Program-made: the position numbers and the translations under genes
Notes under the pieces: generated by a model
The model's database searches: none
What the model saw: only the letters and a program-made list of their open reading frames with translations
What the model was told of the DNA's origin: nothing
Assembly (NCBI GenBank): GCA_016283175.1
Contig: JAEEMK010000088.1
Coordinates: 1 to 35,917 of the forward strand
Length of the DNA: 35,917 nt
Reading direction: 5' to 3'
DNA from: Bacteroidales bacterium
GTDB lineage: Bacteria; Bacteroidota; Bacteroidia; Bacteroidales; P3
Part shown: piece by piece, positions 3,904 through 35,917 of the stretch
Position numbering within the stretch: position 1 is the first letter of the stretch
Layout of the letters: each line of letters opens with the position of its first letter

Positions 3904-4272
3904 TTATAATTCAACCTTCTCGGCATCGGCCCAAAGTTGTTCCAAACGGTAGTGGTCGCGCTTGTCTTTCAGGAAGATATGCACCACTACGTCGAAATAG
4001 TCCATCAGTATCCACTCAGCGTTGTCATAGCCTTCTATGCGTAGCGGATTGGAACCCGTAGCCTTCTTGATGCTTTCAAACACACCGTCGCAGATGGCTT
4101 CGGTGTGCGACGGCACGTTGCCGCTGCAGATGACGAAGTAGTTGGCAGGCGCCGACTGCACTCCCTGCAGGTCCAATATCACAGTGTCGAGACCTTTTTT
4201 GTTCTCGATGCCAAGCGCTGCGAGCTTTGCAAGCGCCTTGCTTTCAGTTAGTTTATCTTTGTTTATTGCCAT
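3904..4272 (-). CDS. rsfS: Ribosomal silencing factor RsfS
   Basis: The 122-aa protein binds L14 (uL14) on the large ribosomal subunit and blocks subunit joining when nutrients are scarce. Family features visible are the central 'VILDL' strand, a YFVICSG strand near residue 47, and the C-terminal block EWILMDYFDVVVHIF, the RsfS/Iojap hallmark. I chose ATG at 4272 (MAINKDKL): a longer frame would begin at a TTG at 4290, only a few nucleotides after the -7 box, where transcription should start. It is the first gene of the operon leading into ftsH, an order common in Bacteroidota. Confidence 0.95.
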   Translation of the reverse strand: MAINKDKLTESKALAKLAALGIENKKGLDTVILDLQGVQSAPANYFVICSGNVPSHTEAICDGVFESIKKATGSNPLRIEGYDNAEWILMDYFDVVVHIFLKDKRDHYRLEQLWADAEKVEL

Positions 4273-4295
4273 TATATGTAAATAGTTCAAATTTG

Positions 4296-4303: not shown

Positions 4304-4385
4304 CGAAAAAAAAACTTTACACGGGCTGAAAACGTTCCACAAGGATAAAAAAAATAAAGACATTACGTTTTCGAAGTCCTGCAAC

Positions 4386-4398
4386 TGACAAAATGTCA
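4386..4398. promoter_or_regulatory. Operator-like 13-bp palindrome, copy 1
   Basis: TGACA-AAA-TGTCA is a perfect palindrome with a 3-nt centre, followed on the plus strand by seven T residues (4401-4407). A 15-nt word containing it, ACTGACAAAATGTCA, occurs again at 4718-4732. It lies about 83 nt upstream of the rsfS -7 box. A regulator binding site or a small plus-strand terminator are both possible. Confidence 0.5.
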
Positions 4399-4477
4399 TA
4401 TTTTTTTGAGTCTCTTTACGACCTTTTTTTACCGTCAATACCCATAGCGGCCTCCAAAATTGAAGTGTAAAAAAGAT

Positions 4478-4600
4478 GTTATTTCCATAAACCAACCCTG
4501 GTCGTTGTACAGTATATGTACAGTATTTGTACAGTATATGTACGCTTTAGAAGCGTACATATACTGTACAAATACTGTACATATACTGTACAACGACCAG
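4478..4600. repeat. Large palindromic element, copy 1 (perfect 50-bp inverted repeat plus flank box)
   Basis: Arms 4498-4547 and 4551-4600 are exact reverse complements over 50 nt, with a 3-nt loop TAG. From the outside inwards an arm is CTGGTCGT, then 11-bp units TGTACAGTATA, TGTACAGTATT, TGTACAGTATA, then the tip TGTACGCTT. Outside the left arm lies a box GTTATTTCCATA (4478-4489) and CCCTGG overlapping the arm end, both related to flanks of the other two copies. The element sits after the tsaE terminator and about 195 nt before the rsfS -7 box. The spacer 4273-4758 holds no gene I can support. Confidence 0.95.
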
Positions 4601-4716: not shown

Positions 4717-4741
4717 GACTGACAAAATGTCAGTCTTTTTT
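4717..4741 (+). terminator. Terminator-like palindrome on the plus strand, copy 2 of the TGACA palindrome
   Basis: GACTGACA-AAA-TGTCAGTC forms an 8-bp stem with a 3-nt loop and is followed by six T residues on the plus strand. Both neighbouring genes are on the minus strand, so a plus-strand terminator here has no obvious client. The core repeats the palindrome at 4386-4398. It may be an operator, or it may end an antisense or small RNA (inference). Confidence 0.5.
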
Positions 4742-4758: not shown

Positions 4759-5181
4759 CTATTCCTCTACCGCGGCGGTCAGTGTGCGAATGCCGTTCTG
4801 CTCGGCGATTTCGATGCGCAGGTAGTGGTCGGGTAGAAGGGGTTCTATTTTCTCGGTCCATTCGGTGAAGCACCAACAGCCAGAATAGAAGTATTCTTCA
4901 TAGCCGATGTCGTAGGCTTCGTCGAGGTTCTTGAGACGGTAGAAGTCGAAATGGTAGATTGGCTCGCCGTTGTGGTCGGCGTACTCGTTGACGATGGCGA
5001 AGGTGGGGCTGCAGACGTTCTGCTCAACGCCCAGCTGTGCGCAGATCTCCTTGATGAGTGTCGTTTTGCCGACACCCATTGACCCGAAGAAGGCGTAGAA
5101 ACGTTCGCCAGGGAACTTTTCAAGCAGTTGATGGGCTACGTCTGGCAACTGCTCAATATTATTGAAAGTCAGAGATAGCAT
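4759..5181 (-). CDS. tsaE: tRNA threonylcarbamoyladenosine biosynthesis ATPase TsaE
   Basis: The 140-aa P-loop ATPase works with TsaB and TsaD to make the t6A modification at position 37 of ANN-decoding tRNAs. The Walker A loop GSMGVGKTT is at about 33-41, followed by the family motifs CSPTFAIVNEY (around residue 57) and HFDFYRL (around residue 77), and EWTEKIEPLLP towards the end. Length is normal. It is the last gene of the minus-strand group and is followed by a terminator. tsaB and tsaD are not in the window. Confidence 0.96.
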   Translation of the reverse strand: MLSLTFNNIEQLPDVAHQLLEKFPGERFYAFFGSMGVGKTTLIKEICAQLGVEQNVCSPTFAIVNEYADHNGEPIYHFDFYRLKNLDEAYDIGYEEYFYSGCWCFTEWTEKIEPLLPDHYLRIEIAEQNGIRTLTAAVEE

Positions 5182-17131: not shown

Positions 17132-18670
17132 GTGAAAAAACAAGGTACATCAAAAAGGAAGACAGATGCAGCATTGGTGCTCAGGCCGTTGGGCGCGCCG
17201 CTCATAGGCGAGGGCATTGCTATGTCGTTGTGCCTTGTGCCTGCGCTGCATTTTGCCGATGGCACGGGGTGGCGCATTCTTGCGGCCTCGCTGACGACGG
17301 TGCTCTTCGGCGCTCTGTTGCTTTGGACTTTGCCTCGCCGCACAGCCCTTTCCGGCACCACCGACAGGCGCCTTTCCTATCTTACCGTAGCTTTTGTTTG
17401 GCTGGCGCTGACTTTTTTCGGCACATTGCCGTACCTTTTATCTGGCCTTCAATTGAACAGCGATGCCGCAGGCTTCTCGCTGTTCAATTCGCACTTCTCA
17501 ATTTCCTTTTCCGATGCTTTCTTCGAGTCGATGTCGGGTCTGACTTCTACAGGTGCCTCGATCTTGGATGCTGTCGAAACCCAGCCTAAGTCACTGCTGC
17601 TGTGGCGCAGTATGAGTAATTGGCTTGGTGGTTTTGGCATCATACTTCTTGTGTTGGCTGTTGTGCCGACTTTGGGTCTTAACAAATACAGTCTTTACAC
17701 CGCCGAGGCCAGCAGTGCCGACAACACTGGCAAAACTACCGCCTCGATGCGAACAATGGTGCGTCAGACACTGATTACATACCTTTCGCTGACGGCATTT
17801 TTCATCGTCTTGCTTACAATTGCAGGAATGACGCTGTGGGAAGCTGTAAACCTGACGTTCAGCAATATATCGACTGGCGGGTTTTCTATCTACGGCGACA
17901 GCATAGCACGTTTCACAGCCACCCAGCAGTATATTCTGACTGCGGCGATGTTCGTTGGCGGCATCAACTTTGCGCTGCTCTACAATTTCTTCACCCTGCG
18001 ATGGAGCAAAATAAGCCGTAAACTTGACCAGTTCGGCTTCTACCTGATACTCATACTGCTGTCGGTCGCCTTTGTCGTTACGGCGTTGCACCGTCGTTGC
18101 GGCTTCGCTTTTGACGATGCCCTGCGTTGCGGCATTGTACAGACTGTCAGTGTTGTAACCACCACTGGAAGCGTTGTCGCCGACACCAATCTTTGGTGGA
18201 CCCCCATTGTGCTGCTGTTTCTTGTATTGAGTCTTTGCGGCGGAATGGCTGGTTCGACCACAGGAGGTGTGAAGATAATGAGGGTGCTGATACTGCTTCG
18301 CACTGTGCGGCTTACGCTGACCAACCGTTTGCATCCCAATGCCTACAATCCTGTCCGCCTCAACGGATATCCTGTGTCGAACGATATGATTACCAATGTG
18401 ATGGTGATTTTTATCGTTTATGTAATCACAATGTTGCTGGGAGTCTTGGCGTTGATGCTTTGTGGGGTCGACGCCACCGAGTCGCTTGGTGCCGTTTTTG
18501 GGTGCATCACCAGCTATGGCCCTGGACTCGGTGCCTGCGGTGGCTTTGGAAGCTACGCCGCTTTTCCCGCTGTGGCCAAATGGATTTGCTCTGCATTGAT
18601 GCTGCTTGGTCGTCTCGAATGCCTTACAATCATCATCATTTTCCTGCCCGGTTTTTGGCGTAACCGTTGA
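17132..18670 (+). CDS. trkH: Trk/Ktr potassium uptake channel subunit TrkH, second paralogue
   Basis: The 512-aa second TrkH-type protein follows the first after 15 nt and begins with GTG. Filter loops read SMSGLTSTGASIL (about 133-145), NISTGGFSIY, VVTTTGSVVAD and CITSYGPGLGACGG, all with a glycine. The third loop (TTTGSV) differs from the first paralogue (STCGFY). The GMAGSTTGGVKIMRVL segment matches the family. Divergence from its neighbour shows that this is an old duplication, not a recent copy. Both probably use the single TrkA encoded upstream. Confidence 0.94.
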   Translation: MKKQGTSKRKTDAALVLRPLGAPLIGEGIAMSLCLVPALHFADGTGWRILAASLTTVLFGALLLWTLPRRTALSGTTDRRLSYLTVAFVWLALTFFGTLPYLLSGLQLNSDAAGFSLFNSHFSISFSDAFFESMSGLTSTGASILDAVETQPKSLLLWRSMSNWLGGFGIILLVLAVVPTLGLNKYSLYTAEASSADNTGKTTASMRTMVRQTLITYLSLTAFFIVLLTIAGMTLWEAVNLTFSNISTGGFSIYGDSIARFTATQQYILTAAMFVGGINFALLYNFFTLRWSKISRKLDQFGFYLILILLSVAFVVTALHRRCGFAFDDALRCGIVQTVSVVTTTGSVVADTNLWWTPIVLLFLVLSLCGGMAGSTTGGVKIMRVLILLRTVRLTLTNRLHPNAYNPVRLNGYPVSNDMITNVMVIFIVYVITMLLGVLALMLCGVDATESLGAVFGCITSYGPGLGACGGFGSYAAFPAVAKWICSALMLLGRLECLTIIIIFLPGFWRNR

Positions 18671-18732: not shown

Positions 18733-18844
18733 GGCATATGTACAGTATTTGTACAGTATATGTACAGTATATGTACGCTTCTGAAGCGTACATATACTGT
18801 ACAAATACTGTACATATGCCAGGGAAAGTATATCGAAAATAACG
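18733..18844. repeat. Large palindromic element, copy 2 (asymmetric arms)
   Basis: The left arm (18733-18780, 48 nt) reads GGCATA, units TGTACAGTATT, TGTACAGTATA, TGTACAGTATA, then tip TGTACGCTT. The loop is CTG (18781-18783). The right arm (18784-18820, 37 nt) mirrors it exactly but lacks one 11-bp unit. The conserved box, here on the minus strand, is at 18829-18844 (CGTTATTTTCGATATA in that strand). The spacer 18671-19047 has no gene; it holds this element and the ftsE promoter box, with at most a weak 5-bp hairpin (CGCAG/CTGCG near 18686) after trkH. Confidence 0.93.
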
Positions 18845-19047: not shown

Positions 19048-19743
19048 ATGGACAAGGAACAGATTATTGCTCTCAATAACGTGACAATCAGCCACGAAGA
19101 AGGTGTCGTGCTTCGCAACGTCAACTTCAAAATGGAGAAAGGCGAGTTTGTCTACCTCATAGGCAAGAGCGGCGCTGGCAAAACGTCGCTTTTGCGCACG
19201 CTTTATGGCGACAGCCCTCTCGAGGAGGGCAGCGGTGTTATATGCGGCTTCAATCTTGGTAGCCTCAAACGTCGTCAGATACCGATGCTGCGCCGCCGTC
19301 TGGGCATCGTTTTCCAGAATTTTCAGTTGCTTACTGACCGTAATGTGTATGACAATCTTGCTTTTGTGCTCCGCAGTATTGGCTGGAAGAAGAAACAACT
19401 TATCGACGAGCGTATTATGGAAGTGTTGACGGCTGTCGGCGTGGCCGACAAGGCTGGCTATCAGACTTATCACCTCTCGGAAGGCGAACGCCAGCGTGTC
19501 GGCATTGCCCGTGCGTTGGTCAATACGCCCGACTTGATTCTTGCCGACGAGCCGACAGGCAATCTCGACCCCATAACGTCGAGCGAGATTATGCATCTTT
19601 TGACCGAGATAAACCGTAATTCGGGAGTGTCGATGCTCATATCGACGCACGATTTTATGATGATAGACAAATTTCCGGCACGTGTGGTCTGCTGCGAGGA
19701 CGGTACACTGGTCGATCCGCAAATCGACGACCAGGCACAATAA
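19048..19743 (+). CDS. ftsE: Cell division ATP-binding protein FtsE
   Basis: The 231-aa ABC ATPase pairs with FtsX and activates peptidoglycan hydrolases at the division site. Walker A is GKSGAGKT (39-46), Q-loop at Q90 in VFQNFQLL, ABC signature LSEGERQR (143-150), Walker B LILADEPTGNLDP (163-175) and the H-loop in STHDFMM. VFQNFQLLTDRNVYDNLAF is characteristic of FtsE and close relatives. No ftsX gene is adjacent, which is common in Bacteroidota. The OmpA-like gene follows after 44 nt. LolD-type transporters are the main alternative, but the FtsE-like Q-loop region and length favour FtsE. Confidence 0.88.
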   Translation: MDKEQIIALNNVTISHEEGVVLRNVNFKMEKGEFVYLIGKSGAGKTSLLRTLYGDSPLEEGSGVICGFNLGSLKRRQIPMLRRRLGIVFQNFQLLTDRNVYDNLAFVLRSIGWKKKQLIDERIMEVLTAVGVADKAGYQTYHLSEGERQRVGIARALVNTPDLILADEPTGNLDPITSSEIMHLLTEINRNSGVSMLISTHDFMMIDKFPARVVCCEDGTLVDPQIDDQAQ

Positions 19744-25832: not shown

Positions 25833-27884
25833 TTAAAAAGAATATACTGCCTTTATGCGGAAGTTGCGACCCATCATAGGATATGAGCGGACAACTTCGT
25901 ACTGGACGTTTAAAAGGTTGAGCACCTGTGCTTGAAGTCTCAGGTCGCCAACGCGCATCTCGAAGGTTCGGTCGATGGTGATGCCGTGGTCGGCATAGGC
26001 GGGCAGCATCGACTCGTCGCTGTTCTGCTGCTGGTCGTAGCGACGGCCCACCAGCATACAGTTGTAGCCGATGTTCAACCAGCGGTGCTGCAGGTAGAGC
26101 GTGATTCCGCCACTGTGGCGCGGGGTGTAAGGTATCTGATGGCCATATGTCTTGGGGTTGTCGGGATCGGTGCAGTCCAGGGCGCGCTGCAGGCTGTAGG
26201 TCAGCGTAGCGCTGAGGCCGAAATGAGGCCACTGCCACTCGGCATTGCCTTTGACATCGAGACCGGTGATCTCGACCAACCCCAGGTTCATTGTCGACCA
26301 GATGAACATATTCTGTCGAGGCACGGCTATGATTTTGTCCTTCACGGCATTTCTGTAGCCGTCGACGGTGATGAGATAGCTGTGGTGCCGTGTCGAATCG
26401 CCTTTTTTCAACCCTGAAAGCGTGAAGCCTACATTGTGCTGGCTGGCACGTTCGGGGCGCAGTGTGTCGAGTGGGATGACAAAATAGTACAGTTCGTTGA
26501 AATTGGGAACTCGGTAGGTGTCTTTGTAGAAATAGCGCAGGCGCAGGTTGCTGTTGTTGAAAGGCTTAATAGTGATGCCGGCATATGGCGACAGCCTGTT
26601 GTAGCCGACGGTATAGTCATTGTCGCAGGCTTTTTCGCTCACCGCTGTGGCCAGAATGTTGGCTTTGGCACTGATGCGTGGCCGCGAGTATTGCAGTGCA
26701 AAGGTGCTGAGCGACGTCAGGCGCTGCACTTTGTTGTTGTGCGAAAGGTTGCTTTGCAGTGCCGTCGCCGCTATGTCGCTGGCTATGCTGGCCGACAGGT
26801 GTTCGGCGGCTCTCCACACTGCGCTGCCCGAAAGGTAGCCTTCCTGCTGGCTGTATTCGTTTTTCTGGTATCGCGATAGGGTTGGAGCCTTGAAATTCTC
26901 GTACAAGTCATTGGTATATTGGTATTTGCCTATGGCTTGCCAACGCAGTTTAGACCTTGAGGCGGTGTATTTCACCTGTGCGAAAAAGAGTTTCTCTTTG
27001 GTGTTTTCCGAACCGCCTGTGACATAATATGCAACCGGTCCTGGAAGTTCGTGGTATCCTTGCACATAGTGCACTTTGGCTGTCAGCGAGCGGTTGAGGG
27101 CAATGCGGTAGAAAAGCGTCATATCGCCTGTCGCAAGCCACATAGCCGAGTGTTCGCGCCGTTCGATCGACGAACTGTCGTTGTGCGACGGTGTGTAGTA
27201 TAGCGTGAAGGGATAGTCGCCGCGACTCTGCAACCAGTTGCCGAAAAAGTTGAGTGATAGCCGCTTTGAGAGCTTTTGTTCGAAACTTAATGTCGGCGAA
27301 ATCATACCGAAGCTGCCGCCTTCGATGCCTATACGCAGGTGTCTACGCTCTCCCGGTAGGAATGAGGGTTCGCGTGTCTCCATATTTATTACGCTGCCTG
27401 CCGCCGTGGCTCGTGCCGACAGCAGCATCTCGTCCTGCTGTCCATTGCTGAGGCTGATGAAAGCGCTGTTGCCCAGCAGGTAACGTCCAAGGTCCACCTG
27501 CCCGTTCTGACAGTCGCTGACGGCCACGCCATCAATGGTCAGCGTGCTGAACTGGCTGCCCAGACCGCGTGCCGACACGGTCTTCATTCCGCCGATGCCG
27601 CCATAGTCGCGAAGTGTGACGCCGGCCATCTGTCTGACGGCGTCGCTCAGCAGCAGTGCACCGCTGCTTTCCATTTTCTTGATGTCGACCACCTGCACCG
27701 GTGCCTGCGACAGCGTCGCCGACGGTTTTTTGTCCTTGGTGACGACGATTGGTGTAAGTTGCTGACGTTGTGAGGCGTTGGTGCTGGAAGTGTCCTGTGC
27801 CGACAGTGGCAAAACAGTTGCCGCCCACATTGTGCAGGCAACCAGAAGGTGCAATATGTCTCTGATAAGCAGTCTTGTTCTCAT
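25833..27884 (-). CDS. btuB: TonB-dependent cobalamin receptor, BtuB type
   Basis: The 683-aa outer-membrane receptor has a signal peptide (about 1-30, cleavage after LSA), a TonB box-like LTPIVVTKDKK soon after, a plug domain (APVQVVDIKKMESSGALLLS to about 170, with GGMKTVSARGLGSQFSTLTIDG) and a 22-strand-type barrel ending RIKAVYSF with a terminal Phe. There is no CarboxypepD_reg extension, so it is BtuB-like rather than SusC-like. I place the start at ATG 27884 (MRTRLLIRD): the open frame continues up to 28085 but that stretch is the cobalamin riboswitch. btuG follows 14 nt downstream. The riboswitch makes B12 or a corrinoid the substrate. Confidence 0.93.
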   Translation of the reverse strand: MRTRLLIRDILHLLVACTMWAATVLPLSAQDTSSTNASQRQQLTPIVVTKDKKPSATLSQAPVQVVDIKKMESSGALLLSDAVRQMAGVTLRDYGGIGGMKTVSARGLGSQFSTLTIDGVAVSDCQNGQVDLGRYLLGNSAFISLSNGQQDEMLLSARATAAGSVINMETREPSFLPGERRHLRIGIEGGSFGMISPTLSFEQKLSKRLSLNFFGNWLQSRGDYPFTLYYTPSHNDSSSIERREHSAMWLATGDMTLFYRIALNRSLTAKVHYVQGYHELPGPVAYYVTGGSENTKEKLFFAQVKYTASRSKLRWQAIGKYQYTNDLYENFKAPTLSRYQKNEYSQQEGYLSGSAVWRAAEHLSASIASDIAATALQSNLSHNNKVQRLTSLSTFALQYSRPRISAKANILATAVSEKACDNDYTVGYNRLSPYAGITIKPFNNSNLRLRYFYKDTYRVPNFNELYYFVIPLDTLRPERASQHNVGFTLSGLKKGDSTRHHSYLITVDGYRNAVKDKIIAVPRQNMFIWSTMNLGLVEITGLDVKGNAEWQWPHFGLSATLTYSLQRALDCTDPDNPKTYGHQIPYTPRHSGGITLYLQHRWLNIGYNCMLVGRRYDQQQNSDESMLPAYADHGITIDRTFEMRVGDLRLQAQVLNLLNVQYEVVRSYPMMGRNFRIKAVYSF

Positions 27885-27919
27885 AATTATCGCCCTTTCC
27901 TCGAGAGCTTTAACACGAC

Positions 27920-28080
27920 GCGTTTGGCAGGTCTTCTGGCTCTGTTCCGGCGGTCCTGGCCTTCCCACACGCCTGTGGCGGTGTGCAGTGGCTTGCTGTG
28001 GACTGCCTGTTGTGGAACTTACAGCAGCGGGACTGTCAATGAATTTCACATTGTTCCCTTTTGACGCCCAACAGACTGAA
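27920..28080 (-). ncRNA. Cobalamin riboswitch in the btuB leader
   Basis: On the minus strand the conserved blocks occur in order: AAAAGGGAACAATGTGAAAT, GACAGTCCCGCTGCTGTAAG (the B12-box region), CACTGC, GGGAAGGCCAGGACC and finally GAGCCAGAAGACCTGCC. These are the core J-regions and B12 box of the AdoCbl-type riboswitch. It begins about 50 nt after the promoter and ends about 36 nt before the btuB ATG. When bound to B12 it should reduce expression of btuB-btuG. Exact outer-stem limits are not settled. Confidence 0.95.
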
Positions 28081-28134
28081 AACAATTATGATGCGATGCT
28101 TCCTGTCTGCCTTTTCGGGCGACCAAACCGGTTG

Positions 28135-31195: not shown

Positions 31196-31528
31196 ATGCT
31201 TGTAGATTTCAACAAGATAGACGAGGTGGCAAATCCTCGTTTCAAAGGCGGCGAAGGCGACACGATGTTCCGCACGTTCAACGACGGCGTTAACAAAATT
31301 ATGCGTGGACGGCTTGAGCCAGGCTGCTCGATAGGTCTGCACACGCACGAGACCAACAGCGAGATAATCTATATCATCAGTGGCGATGCCCGCTGCCTTT
31401 ATGACGACGGCGAGGAGCGCCTTGCCGCCGGCCAGAGCCACTACTGCCCCAAAGGCCATTCGCACAGCCTTATCAACGCCAGCGCAACCGAGCCGTTGCT
31501 GTTTTTTGCCGTCGTTCCGGAGCAATAA
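31196..31528 (+). CDS. Single-domain cupin protein
   Basis: The 110-aa protein fits both cupin motifs exactly. Motif 1 is GCSIGLHTHETNSEIIYIIS then G (about residues 43-63), with the two His and the Glu for metal binding. Motif 2 is GQSHYCPKGHSHSLIN (about 81-96), with its His. A metal-bound small-molecule role is likely; the substrate is unknown. The ATG at 31196 is preceded by AGGAAGG, an unusually good Shine-Dalgarno-like sequence for a Bacteroidota gene. It is transcribed away from the secreted-protein operon and no partner gene is close. Confidence 0.9.
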   Translation: MLVDFNKIDEVANPRFKGGEGDTMFRTFNDGVNKIMRGRLEPGCSIGLHTHETNSEIIYIISGDARCLYDDGEERLAAGQSHYCPKGHSHSLINASATEPLLFFAVVPEQ

Positions 31529-31631: not shown

Positions 31632-31755
31632 CGTTGTTTTCGATATATCTTCTTCGTCATATGTACAGTATATGTACAGTATTTGTACAGTATATGTACG
31701 CTTCTGAAGCGTACATATACTGTACAAATACTGTACATATACTGTACATATGACG
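31632..31755. repeat. Large palindromic element, copy 3 (perfect 49-bp inverted repeat plus flank box)
   Basis: Arms 31655-31703 and 31707-31755 are exact reverse complements over 49 nt, loop CTG. From the outside in: CGTCATA, units TGTACAGTATA, TGTACAGTATT, TGTACAGTATA, tip TGTACGCTT, that is the same unit order as copy 1. The conserved box CGTTGTTTTCGATATA is at 31632-31647. With G-T pairs the stem can be extended by about five bases. The spacer 31529-31969 has no gene I can support. Confidence 0.95.
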
Positions 31756-31909: not shown

Positions 31910-31969
31910 GTGCAATAAAACAATTGAAAGTGGCGTTACAGGCTGTTGAAAATTATAAAGACAAGAAGA

Positions 31970-32656
31970 ATGAACATTCCCATCATTTGGATAATATTCG
32001 GAGTGCTGTTCCTGCTCAGCATCATTGCTTCGAAAAGCCTCGAGGCCAAGTTCAAGAAGTATTCGAAGATTGCGATGAACTACAATATGACAGGACGCGA
32101 AGTGGCTGAACAGATGTTGAAAGACAACGACATACGCGATGTGACGGTGCAGCAGGTCGATGGCCAGCTGACTGACCACTACAACCCTTTGAACAAGACG
32201 CTCAACCTGAGCAAGGGCGTGTACTACGGCACCAGTGTCGCCGCTGCCGCCGTGGCGGCGCACGAATGCGGCCACGCTGTGCAGCACGCCACGGCTTACT
32301 ATTGGCTGGGCCTTCGCTCGAAGATGGTTCCGGCGGTGAGCATTTCGAACCGTTTCACACCGTGGATTCTTTTTATCGGTATACTTATGGTTCAGAAGTT
32401 CCCGAGCCTGTTGCTCATAGGCATCATCCTTTTCGCTGTCACGACGCTGTTTTCGTTTGTCACGCTGCCTGTCGAAATCAATGCTTCCAAACGTGCGTTG
32501 GTGTGGCTTAACACACATAATATCACCACTCCCGATACCCATATCTATGCCGAAAGTGCGTTGCGCTCGGCTGCTTATACCTATGTCATTGCCGCGTTGA
32601 CCTCGCTGGCCACGCTGCTGTACTACCTGATGATTTACCTTGGCAACCGCGACTGA
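31970..32656 (+). CDS. Membrane-bound neutral zinc metallopeptidase (Zn_peptidase_2 family)
   Basis: The 228-aa protein begins with a membrane helix (NIPIIWIIFGVLFLLSIIA, residues 2-20) followed by a soluble part with the zinc motif HECGHAVQH (98-106) and, after further membrane helices (about 130-165), the third-ligand region LPVEINASKRAL. The final helix is AYTYVIAALTSLATLLYYLM. This is the small membrane metallopeptidase family (PF04298-like), whose substrate is not known. I use ATG 31970 (MNIPIIW) rather than the upstream TTG at 31946. A terminator follows. Confidence 0.9.
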   Translation: MNIPIIWIIFGVLFLLSIIASKSLEAKFKKYSKIAMNYNMTGREVAEQMLKDNDIRDVTVQQVDGQLTDHYNPLNKTLNLSKGVYYGTSVAAAAVAAHECGHAVQHATAYYWLGLRSKMVPAVSISNRFTPWILFIGILMVQKFPSLLLIGIILFAVTTLFSFVTLPVEINASKRALVWLNTHNITTPDTHIYAESALRSAAYTYVIAALTSLATLLYYLMIYLGNRD

Positions 32657-35540: not shown

Positions 35541-35613
<73 letters not shown>

Positions 35614-35643
35614 CAAATAAAAGAGTGGTTATTGAAATAACAC

Positions 35644-35716
<73 letters not shown>

Positions 35717-35740
35717 CAAAGTCTCCAACCAGATTTTGAT

Positions 35741-35823
35741 GCTCTGGTGGTGGAATGGTAGACACGAGGGACTTAAAATCCCTTGCCCGCAAGGGCGTGT
35801 GGGTTCAAGTCCCACCCGGAGTA
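35741..35823 (+). tRNA. tRNA-Leu (UAA)
   Basis: An 83-nt tRNA with acceptor GCTCTGG/CCGGAGT (two G-T pairs), anticodon stem AGGGA/TCCCT around CTTAAAA (anticodon TAA), a long variable arm TTGCCCGCAAGGGCGTG as expected of class II tRNA-Leu, T-arm GTGGGTTCAAGTCCCAC and discriminator A. Confidence 0.93.
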
Positions 35824-35855
35824 CTGAAAAGAGTAGTTTGAAATACTGCAACAAT

Positions 35856-35917
35856 GTCTTGGTAGCTCAGCTGGTAGAGCAATTGACTCTTAATCAATGG
35901 GTCCAGGGTTCGAATCC
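35856..35917 (+). tRNA. tRNA-Lys (CUU), partial at window edge
   Basis: Begins GTCTTGG, TA, D-arm GCTCAGCTGGTAGAGC, anticodon stem ATTGA/TCAAT around CTCTTAA (anticodon CTT), then GGGTTCGAATCC; the acceptor 3' strand is outside the window. The 5' limit is set by counting seven bases before the TA. Confidence 0.88.

Follow-up and report, generated by a model that had tools for sequence, protein, structure and literature searches.

The perfect inverted repeat in the gap between tsaE and rsfS is one member of a family of intergenic palindromes, with about 90 copies in its genome, in which two arrays of phased 11-bp units face each other. With a probability of about one half, we take the element to be the cis component of a two-part, REPIN/MITE-like system dispersed through the genome, with arms that would form a multivalent landing array for a putative protein. 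Computation gave the number of copies, their architecture, their spacing in two genomes, gene context, arm symmetry, the private units and the species-specific cores at shared positions. The window, that is the whole stretch of 35,917 nucleotides that was analysed, comes from a genome of 2.25 Mb in 111 contigs, here called G000; other genomes carry handles of the same form.

The palindrome and its copies in the window

A preliminary description of the sequence had reported perfect 50-nt arms with a 3-nt TAG spacer, three 11-bp units in each arm, and a GTAC tetramer at each 11 bp with a 15-bp step over the loop. All 50 bp of the arms do pair, the three units per arm are present as they were quoted, and the mapped GTAC starts are separated by 11, 11, 11, 15, 11, 11 and 11 bp (Table 1). 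The DNA fold of this copy is calculated at -59.2 kcal/mol, compared to a mean of -13.2 for 200 dinucleotide-preserving shuffles (z -16.9), none of which was as good (0/200). The eight GTACs were also said to lie on a single face of the helix, which is wrong for both arms together; at 10.5 bp per turn, simple arithmetic shows that the 11-bp step drifts by around 17 degrees per unit and that the central 15-bp step places the arms around 150 degrees apart, so that the two arms are rotated away from one another.

Copy 1 occupies a gap of around 0.49 kb between two minus-strand genes. No Rfam family reached the gathering threshold at this copy, and an exact 18-mer was without a match in open PubMed Central papers. 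Sites of the CTGACAAAATGTCA type at 4384-4407 and 4718-4741 flank it within the same gap, and these are possibly a separate regulator site. Two sister copies, on which the preliminary description was silent, are present further along the window, and all three copies are co-directional with respect to their neighbouring genes. A coding role was considered and rejected, since the open reading frames that cross copies 2 and 3 are short readthroughs only.

Table 1. Coordinates of the palindromes, their neighbouring genes and other features of the window
Feature	Position	Strand	Details
rsfS	3904-4290	-	ORF; Pfam RsfS 105 bits
Palindrome copy 1	4498..4600	n/a	arms 4498-4547 and 4551-4600 (50 bp each); loop TAG 4548-4550
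Inverted 11-bp array of copy 1	4507..4591	n/a	eight GTAC centres, starting at 4507, 4518, 4529, 4540, 4555, 4566, 4577, 4588; 3 TGTACAGTAT[AT] units per arm
Tip of copy 1 array			GTACGCTT TAG AAGCGTAC
tsaE	4759-5181	-	ORF; Pfam TsaE 128 bits
TrkH gene	17132-18670	+	Pfam; neighbour of copy 2
Palindrome copy 2	18733..18820	n/a	right arm 1 unit shorter (7 GTAC); outer arms GGCATAT/ATATGCC
ABC-transporter ATPase gene	19048-19743	+	Pfam; neighbour of copy 2
TonB-receptor ORF	25833-28085	-	Pfam Plug 41.9 bits
Cobalamin riboswitch	27909-28086	-	81.2 bits; at start of TonB-receptor ORF
Cupin gene	31196-31528	+	Pfam; neighbour of copy 3
Palindrome copy 3	31656..31754	n/a	8 GTAC; outer arms GTCATAT/ATATGAC
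Zinc-peptidase gene	31946-32656	+	Pfam; neighbour of copy 3
tRNA cluster	35541-35917		Gly, Gly, Leu and a fourth tRNA truncated by the window end

Copy number and conservation of the unit

The search of the genome and its relatives that had been proposed in the preliminary description found many further copies in both, so the absence from every close relative and from the rest of the genome that would have counted against the element is not what is seen. In G000 the palindrome-centre pattern matches 90 times in forward and 88 times in reverse orientation, the unit dimer 160 and 155 times, and 77 tips have the form GTACGCTTNTNAAGCGTAC. A de novo palindrome scan of 772,267 bases returned 46 palindromes in which 34 or more of the 40 arm positions pair, and for every one of these the best lag is 11 when lags 5-19 are compared; a single base-composition shuffle of the scanned sequence gave none, even at 26/40, and chance origin is therefore excluded. 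The same scan contained 16 weaker palindromes (26-33/40), just two of which are partly decayed copies of the GTAC family, and this scarcity, with the copy number, bears out the earlier statement that something keeps the palindrome. The copies are multicopy, short, non-coding, intergenic and inverted, as are ERIC-like dispersed repeats; one of 49 overlaps a strongly scored open reading frame, at its 5' end. A direct 11-bp array with the unit CAACTCTGAGT, in around 8 copies, is found near position 27565 of contig C10 and represents another 11-bp family in this genome.

Within G000 the unit itself is tightly conserved. In 279 units from the de novo palindromes, where the way of setting the frame makes the first unit's GTAC invariant, fixation is 97.8-100% at nine of the 11 positions and 92.5% at a tenth, and the remaining position is divided 58/42.

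That the palindromes are an artefact of assembly has a negligible probability. Four contigs (C18, C34, C43 and C75) do end at a copy, as an artefact might produce, but copies also lie inside long contigs (10 of them in one 325-kb contig of the relative G069), occur in several independent assemblies and have units specific to the species. Survival of the palindromes through absence of SbcCD was also rejected, as SbcD-family proteins score above the cut-off in seven carriers (G000, G069, G045, G025, G053, G144 and G124; 56/119 genomes overall); none was above the cut-off in G042 or G036, and the carriers covered are all those of the GTAC type but G154.

The GTAC type in related genomes

The GTAC-type centre pattern is present in 9/120 genomes of the genus and has no match in the other 111. 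Forward and reverse matches number 65/62 in G069, 54/47 in G045, 45/45 in G025, 26/26 in G053, 23/23 in G042, 5/8 in G154, 1/1 in G144 and 1/0 in G124, so that carriers range from 1 to around 90 copies; a single one-armed array is found in G036. In 393 genomes of the order (G000 and G069 among them) there were no further matches apart from tandem arrays in two genomes. Tandem 11-bp arrays of TGTACGATAGA and TGTACATTACC were observed at L319 (G209) and L318 (G196), which belong to other families of the order. Among the matches listed, the named records comprise UBA3724 and Bacteroidales MAGs of goat and sheep gut origin. The unit of G000 had no match in viral contigs by exact pattern, nor in 72,556 plasmid or 50,697 phage records by blastn (E 0.001).

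Among carriers of the GTAC type the unit differs by species: it is TGTACAGTAT[AT] in G000, TGTACGGTATA and TGTACGCTATA in G053/G042, TGTACAATAYT in G069 and TGTACGATACT in G154. The dinucleotide 3' of TGTAC varies between the species, and TGTAC and TA are constant. Nine of 11 positions are nearly fixed within G000 and TGTAC/TA are constant between species, which is the pattern that would be left by a protein stepping along the DNA one turn at a time.

CarH operators are likewise tandem 11-bp direct repeats, of the form nnnnTnnACAn and bound on one face, as described in passages of PMC9304148. It is distinctly improbable that the palindromes are operators of a global MerR/CarH-type regulator that recognises tandem 11-bp direct repeats with TnnACA. 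The TGTACA of the G000 unit fits TnnACA and copies are situated upstream of genes; the units TGTACGGTATA (G053), TTACGGTAGTA (G012) and TGTCCGCTTGT (G069, second family), however, do not fit, and regular spacing across unrelated genes would be unexpected for a regulon. CarH operators also differ in being promoter sites with three to five unidirectional repeats that are not dispersed by the dozen (passages of PMC9304148).

The pairing of the arms is less constant than their phasing. Only 31-32 of 40 positions pair in three copies from G025 and 31-37 of 40 in 27 copies from G069, and yet the 11-bp phasing is retained; in the set of named MAGs the arms are perfect in 23/39 copies. The preliminary description had offered either an array for a cooperative protein or a cruciform, and of these the phased array is supported by the conservation of the unit, whereas a perfect-arm cruciform does not hold as a general rule because the imperfect arms of G025 and G069 have kept their phase. 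What is constant across species is the inverted 11-bp phasing, and neither sequence nor perfect pairing.

The same evidence bears on the idea that it is the folded form that matters at promoters or in replication, either as a DNA cruciform or hairpin or as an RNA hairpin of 50 bp that RNase III cuts. In its favour are the perfect 50-bp stem, the symmetry of the arms at variable sites and the mild enrichment of G000 copies (see below) at divergent promoters, where negative supercoiling is to be expected. Nevertheless, phasing outlasts perfect pairing in G025 and G069, and other members of the genus carry arrays that are direct or one-armed, so that we regard a role for the folded form as improbable.

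The same architecture with other units

Inverted 11-bp arrays with different units are found in other genomes of the genus. When 20 stretches from 16 genomes were scanned at a threshold of 32/44, 13 arrays were found at lag 11 compared to 0, 3 and 0 at lags 10, 12 and 13; three of the 16 genomes had been picked since an array had already been seen there, and two of the arrays were known beforehand. Lags 7 and 14 gave 9 each and lag 21 gave 7, from heptad-type repeats. In G012 there are 43 palindromes with the unit TTACGGTAGTA, which is present in 1/119 genomes of the genus and has therefore presumably spread within that lineage. Two further palindrome families, TGTCCGCTTGW and TGTCCAGTTGT, occur in G069, and arrays built from yet other units, direct or in part inverted, are found in G010, G068, G015, G024, G035 and G049. 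Families that are private and yet exist in dozens of copies argue for dispersal within the genome.

In four genomes the gap upstream of rsfS is occupied by an 11-bp array, each with a different unit: G000, G035, G015 and, at a weaker score (32/44 within an 80-bp gap), G004. A more general comparison used the 222 genes with a G000 homologue, from 572 called: a G000 palindrome is present upstream in 5/18 genes with an array and in 22/204 without one (one-sided P 0.051), where two of the five are rsfS, and the downstream comparison (1/11 versus 8/211) shows nothing.

Gene context and spacing of the copies

Genes were called with a simple hexamer-based script. In G000, 44 of 49 copies could be classed, with 23 between co-directional, 20 between divergent and 1 between convergent genes; a further copy overlaps an open reading frame at its start. 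The corresponding numbers are 10, 13 and 1 for 24/30 copies from G069, and 11, 14 and 0 for 25/42 copies from the named MAGs. Pooled, 2/93 copies are convergent compared to 45/327 intergenic gaps of at least 100 bp (Fisher P 0.0005), a clear depletion, and divergent pairs are mildly enriched in G000 (20/44 versus 60/195, P 0.047). An intrinsic terminator was rejected on this rarity between convergent genes and on the lack of a T-run at copy 1, which agrees with the earlier view that the palindrome is not a plain terminator.

Spacing was analysed in G000 on 18 fetched contigs or contig parts, chosen for length or for the presence of copies. The 31 gaps between 49 copies have a minimum of 9,251 and a median of 13,494 bp, and a coefficient of variation of 0.35 compared to 0.845 in simulations, a value reached in 0/20,000. 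No gap is shorter than 9 kb, where 15.6 would be expected with uniform placement or 7.8 with the outer copies fixed; contig C13, outside this set, has one gap of 7.6 kb. For the main family of G069 the minimum of 45 gaps is 8,329 bp, with none below 8 kb versus 7.9 expected (0/20,000) and 11/45 at 8-13 kb versus 6.2 expected; a second-family copy is situated 7.8 kb away from one of the main family. In G012 the repulsion is weak, with 1/28 gaps below 8 kb versus 3.6 expected (P 0.09), one below 10 kb versus 4.4 expected (P 0.03), and a minimum of 6.3 kb.

These observations speak for the main rival of the dispersed-system reading, a doubtful one in our judgement, in which the copies would be host chromosome-organising sites where a nucleoid or topology protein, its specificity changing fast between species and bound in promoter-side gaps every 10-15 kb or so, divides the chromosome into domains. 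The hard minimum spacing in G000, the gaps of more than 8.3 kb with an excess at 8-13 kb in G069, the depletion between convergent genes, the small number of half-decayed copies and the occupation of the rsfS gap in four species by differing units would all be expected of such sites. Against this, the GTAC type is missing from most of the genus, carriers vary from 1 to around 90 in copy number, no copy occurs in the initial 54 kb of contig C20, and the homologue test is borderline upstream and negative downstream. The dispersed-system reading has its own difficulties: no autonomous element or transposase was tied to the palindrome, the recurrence at rsfS of arrays with different units fits a host function at least equally well, and the repulsion in G012 is weak.

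It is possible, if unlikely, that such a role extends to the whole genus as a form of chromosome marking, at around one site per 10-15 kb where copies are dense and in promoter-side gaps. Here the architecture of inverted one-turn 11-bp iteron arrays would be conserved and the unit replaced wholesale in each species. The protein would co-evolve with its sites, which would all be rewritten concertedly, as a bacterial counterpart of a fast-changing site specificity.

Arm symmetry and turnover

In 73 G000 copies, chosen by a pattern that fixes the tip, the arms are identical over 48 positions in 32 copies and have at most two differences in 53. Of the 14 variable sites tested at positions 11-49, 12 show more agreement between the arms of a copy than shuffles do, the exceptions being sites 23 and 49, and positions 50-62 are without excess. 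On one side of many G000 copies there is a degenerate flank (the outer 60-120 bp) with GAAAC/A-rich steps of around 10-11 bp, ending near CTGGTTTTCAAT; since this degenerate sequence is common to many copies, the copies look old while their cores remain alike.

When 30 G069 copies were compared to G000, seven were at the position of a G000 copy (one of these judged by a single flank), five positions were empty in G000 and 18 copies were not placed, a class that includes those matching loci of other genomes. At the four shared positions that were aligned, the core is of each species' own type, which is concerted change. For one G069 copy missing from G000 there is a G000 copy around 1.1 kb away, which movement alone leaves unexplained; for another, an outer arm is left in G000 between CCGG repeats and is read as a deletion; and one more joins flanks that in G000 belong to two separate copies, which is a rearrangement at the element. 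Alignment of six filled and empty pairs gave no clear target-site duplication or clean empty site, the clearest reading as a deletion. Palindromes are known as places of breakage and rearrangement (PMC3315005), and such events may act at the 11-bp elements here.

Movement of the palindromes as REPINs by a REP-associated tyrosine transposase (RAYT) is very improbable. The elements are inverted hairpins, intergenic and multicopy, and there are two Y1_Tnp matches in G000; Y1_Tnp, however, is found in 47/74 genomes of the genus and was not found in the carrier G042 (89% complete). A match is present in 5/6 main carriers, with G154, G144 and G124 outside the 74-genome sample. Furthermore, 41 Y1 flanks of up to 500 bp contained no lag-11 array (maximum 21/44) and no 30/40 palindrome, in a survey where the 21 hits read correspond to 20 distinct genes and 25 loci were searched. 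Judged by eye, Y1/RAYT genes adjoin short hairpin repeats. Clusters of such hairpins (e.g. CCCCTACGGGG) were observed by eye at L225, L227, L222 and L177-L187, with a stem that differs from gene to gene. A near-constant distance of around 4 kb between Y1 gene and palindrome at three loci was rejected as chance, as the two neighbourhoods that were read differ.

A model for the proposed dispersed system

From these properties we infer the following working of the dispersed system. Each copy consists of two 11-bp iteron arrays in inverted orientation; in the GTAC type the unit TGTACnnTAnn is present three times per arm, with a fixed tip. Most likely the putative protein would multimerise along each arm with one contact per 11 bp, and two facing protein filaments would meet at the tip. 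Copies would spread within the genome as small non-autonomous elements, behaving in a REPIN/MITE-like manner, and would settle mostly in promoter-side gaps; they may be kept alike by exchange, from copy to copy as well as from arm to arm within a copy. A second copy within around 8 kb would either not be tolerated or not be inserted.

Comparison with known systems

The element is a kind of dispersed intergenic palindrome, and among described kinds BrickBuilt, REPIN and ERIC-type elements come closest to it. ERIC is palindromic, and the host of BrickBuilt, Porphyromonas gingivalis, is a member of the Bacteroidales. Cooperative filaments form on direct repeats of around 11 bp in ParR/parC-type iteron arrays, which differ from the 11-bp palindromes in being a plasmid centromere at a single site.

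The BrickBuilt MITE is described in passages of PMC4596501 as strictly intergenic, species-specific and composed of short tandem repeats, as the palindromes are, with 19 copies in one genome. It differs in having 23-nt direct repeats between a leader and a tail, with small inverted-repeat ends, and those passages contain no mention of a palindrome or of even spacing (PMC4596501). With REPIN/REP-RAYT systems, as portrayed in parts of PMC3116915, the palindromes share inverted repeats, intergenic position, many copies and evolution within the genome; REPINs, in contrast, have short REP units and a proximal RAYT, whereas the RAYTs of this genus adjoin other repeats. REPIN doublets are reported there to be randomly distributed (PMC3116915, in part), which counts against a REPIN reading here. 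Like that of ERIC and other intergenic MITEs, the copy number varies by taxon (passages of PMC10969869); compared to ERIC, the element here has phased 11-bp iteron arms, species-private sequence and a minimum spacing.

Among titles and the starts of abstracts in open PubMed Central, nothing described palindromes of 11-bp iterons that have private units and a minimum spacing. Bacterial palindromes of the dispersed kind are in most cases short and associated with a RAYT (REP/REPIN; parts of PMC3116915). The present class differs in being long, phased at one turn, held to a hard minimum spacing in two genomes and private to the species, with a single type of core per species at shared positions. 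It offers a natural system for palindrome survival in a genome with an SbcD-family gene, for the concerted evolution of dispersed copies, and for asking if bacteria divide their chromosome by dispersed arrays; the sequence of the unit also defines a bait DNA for a direct search for the putative binding protein.
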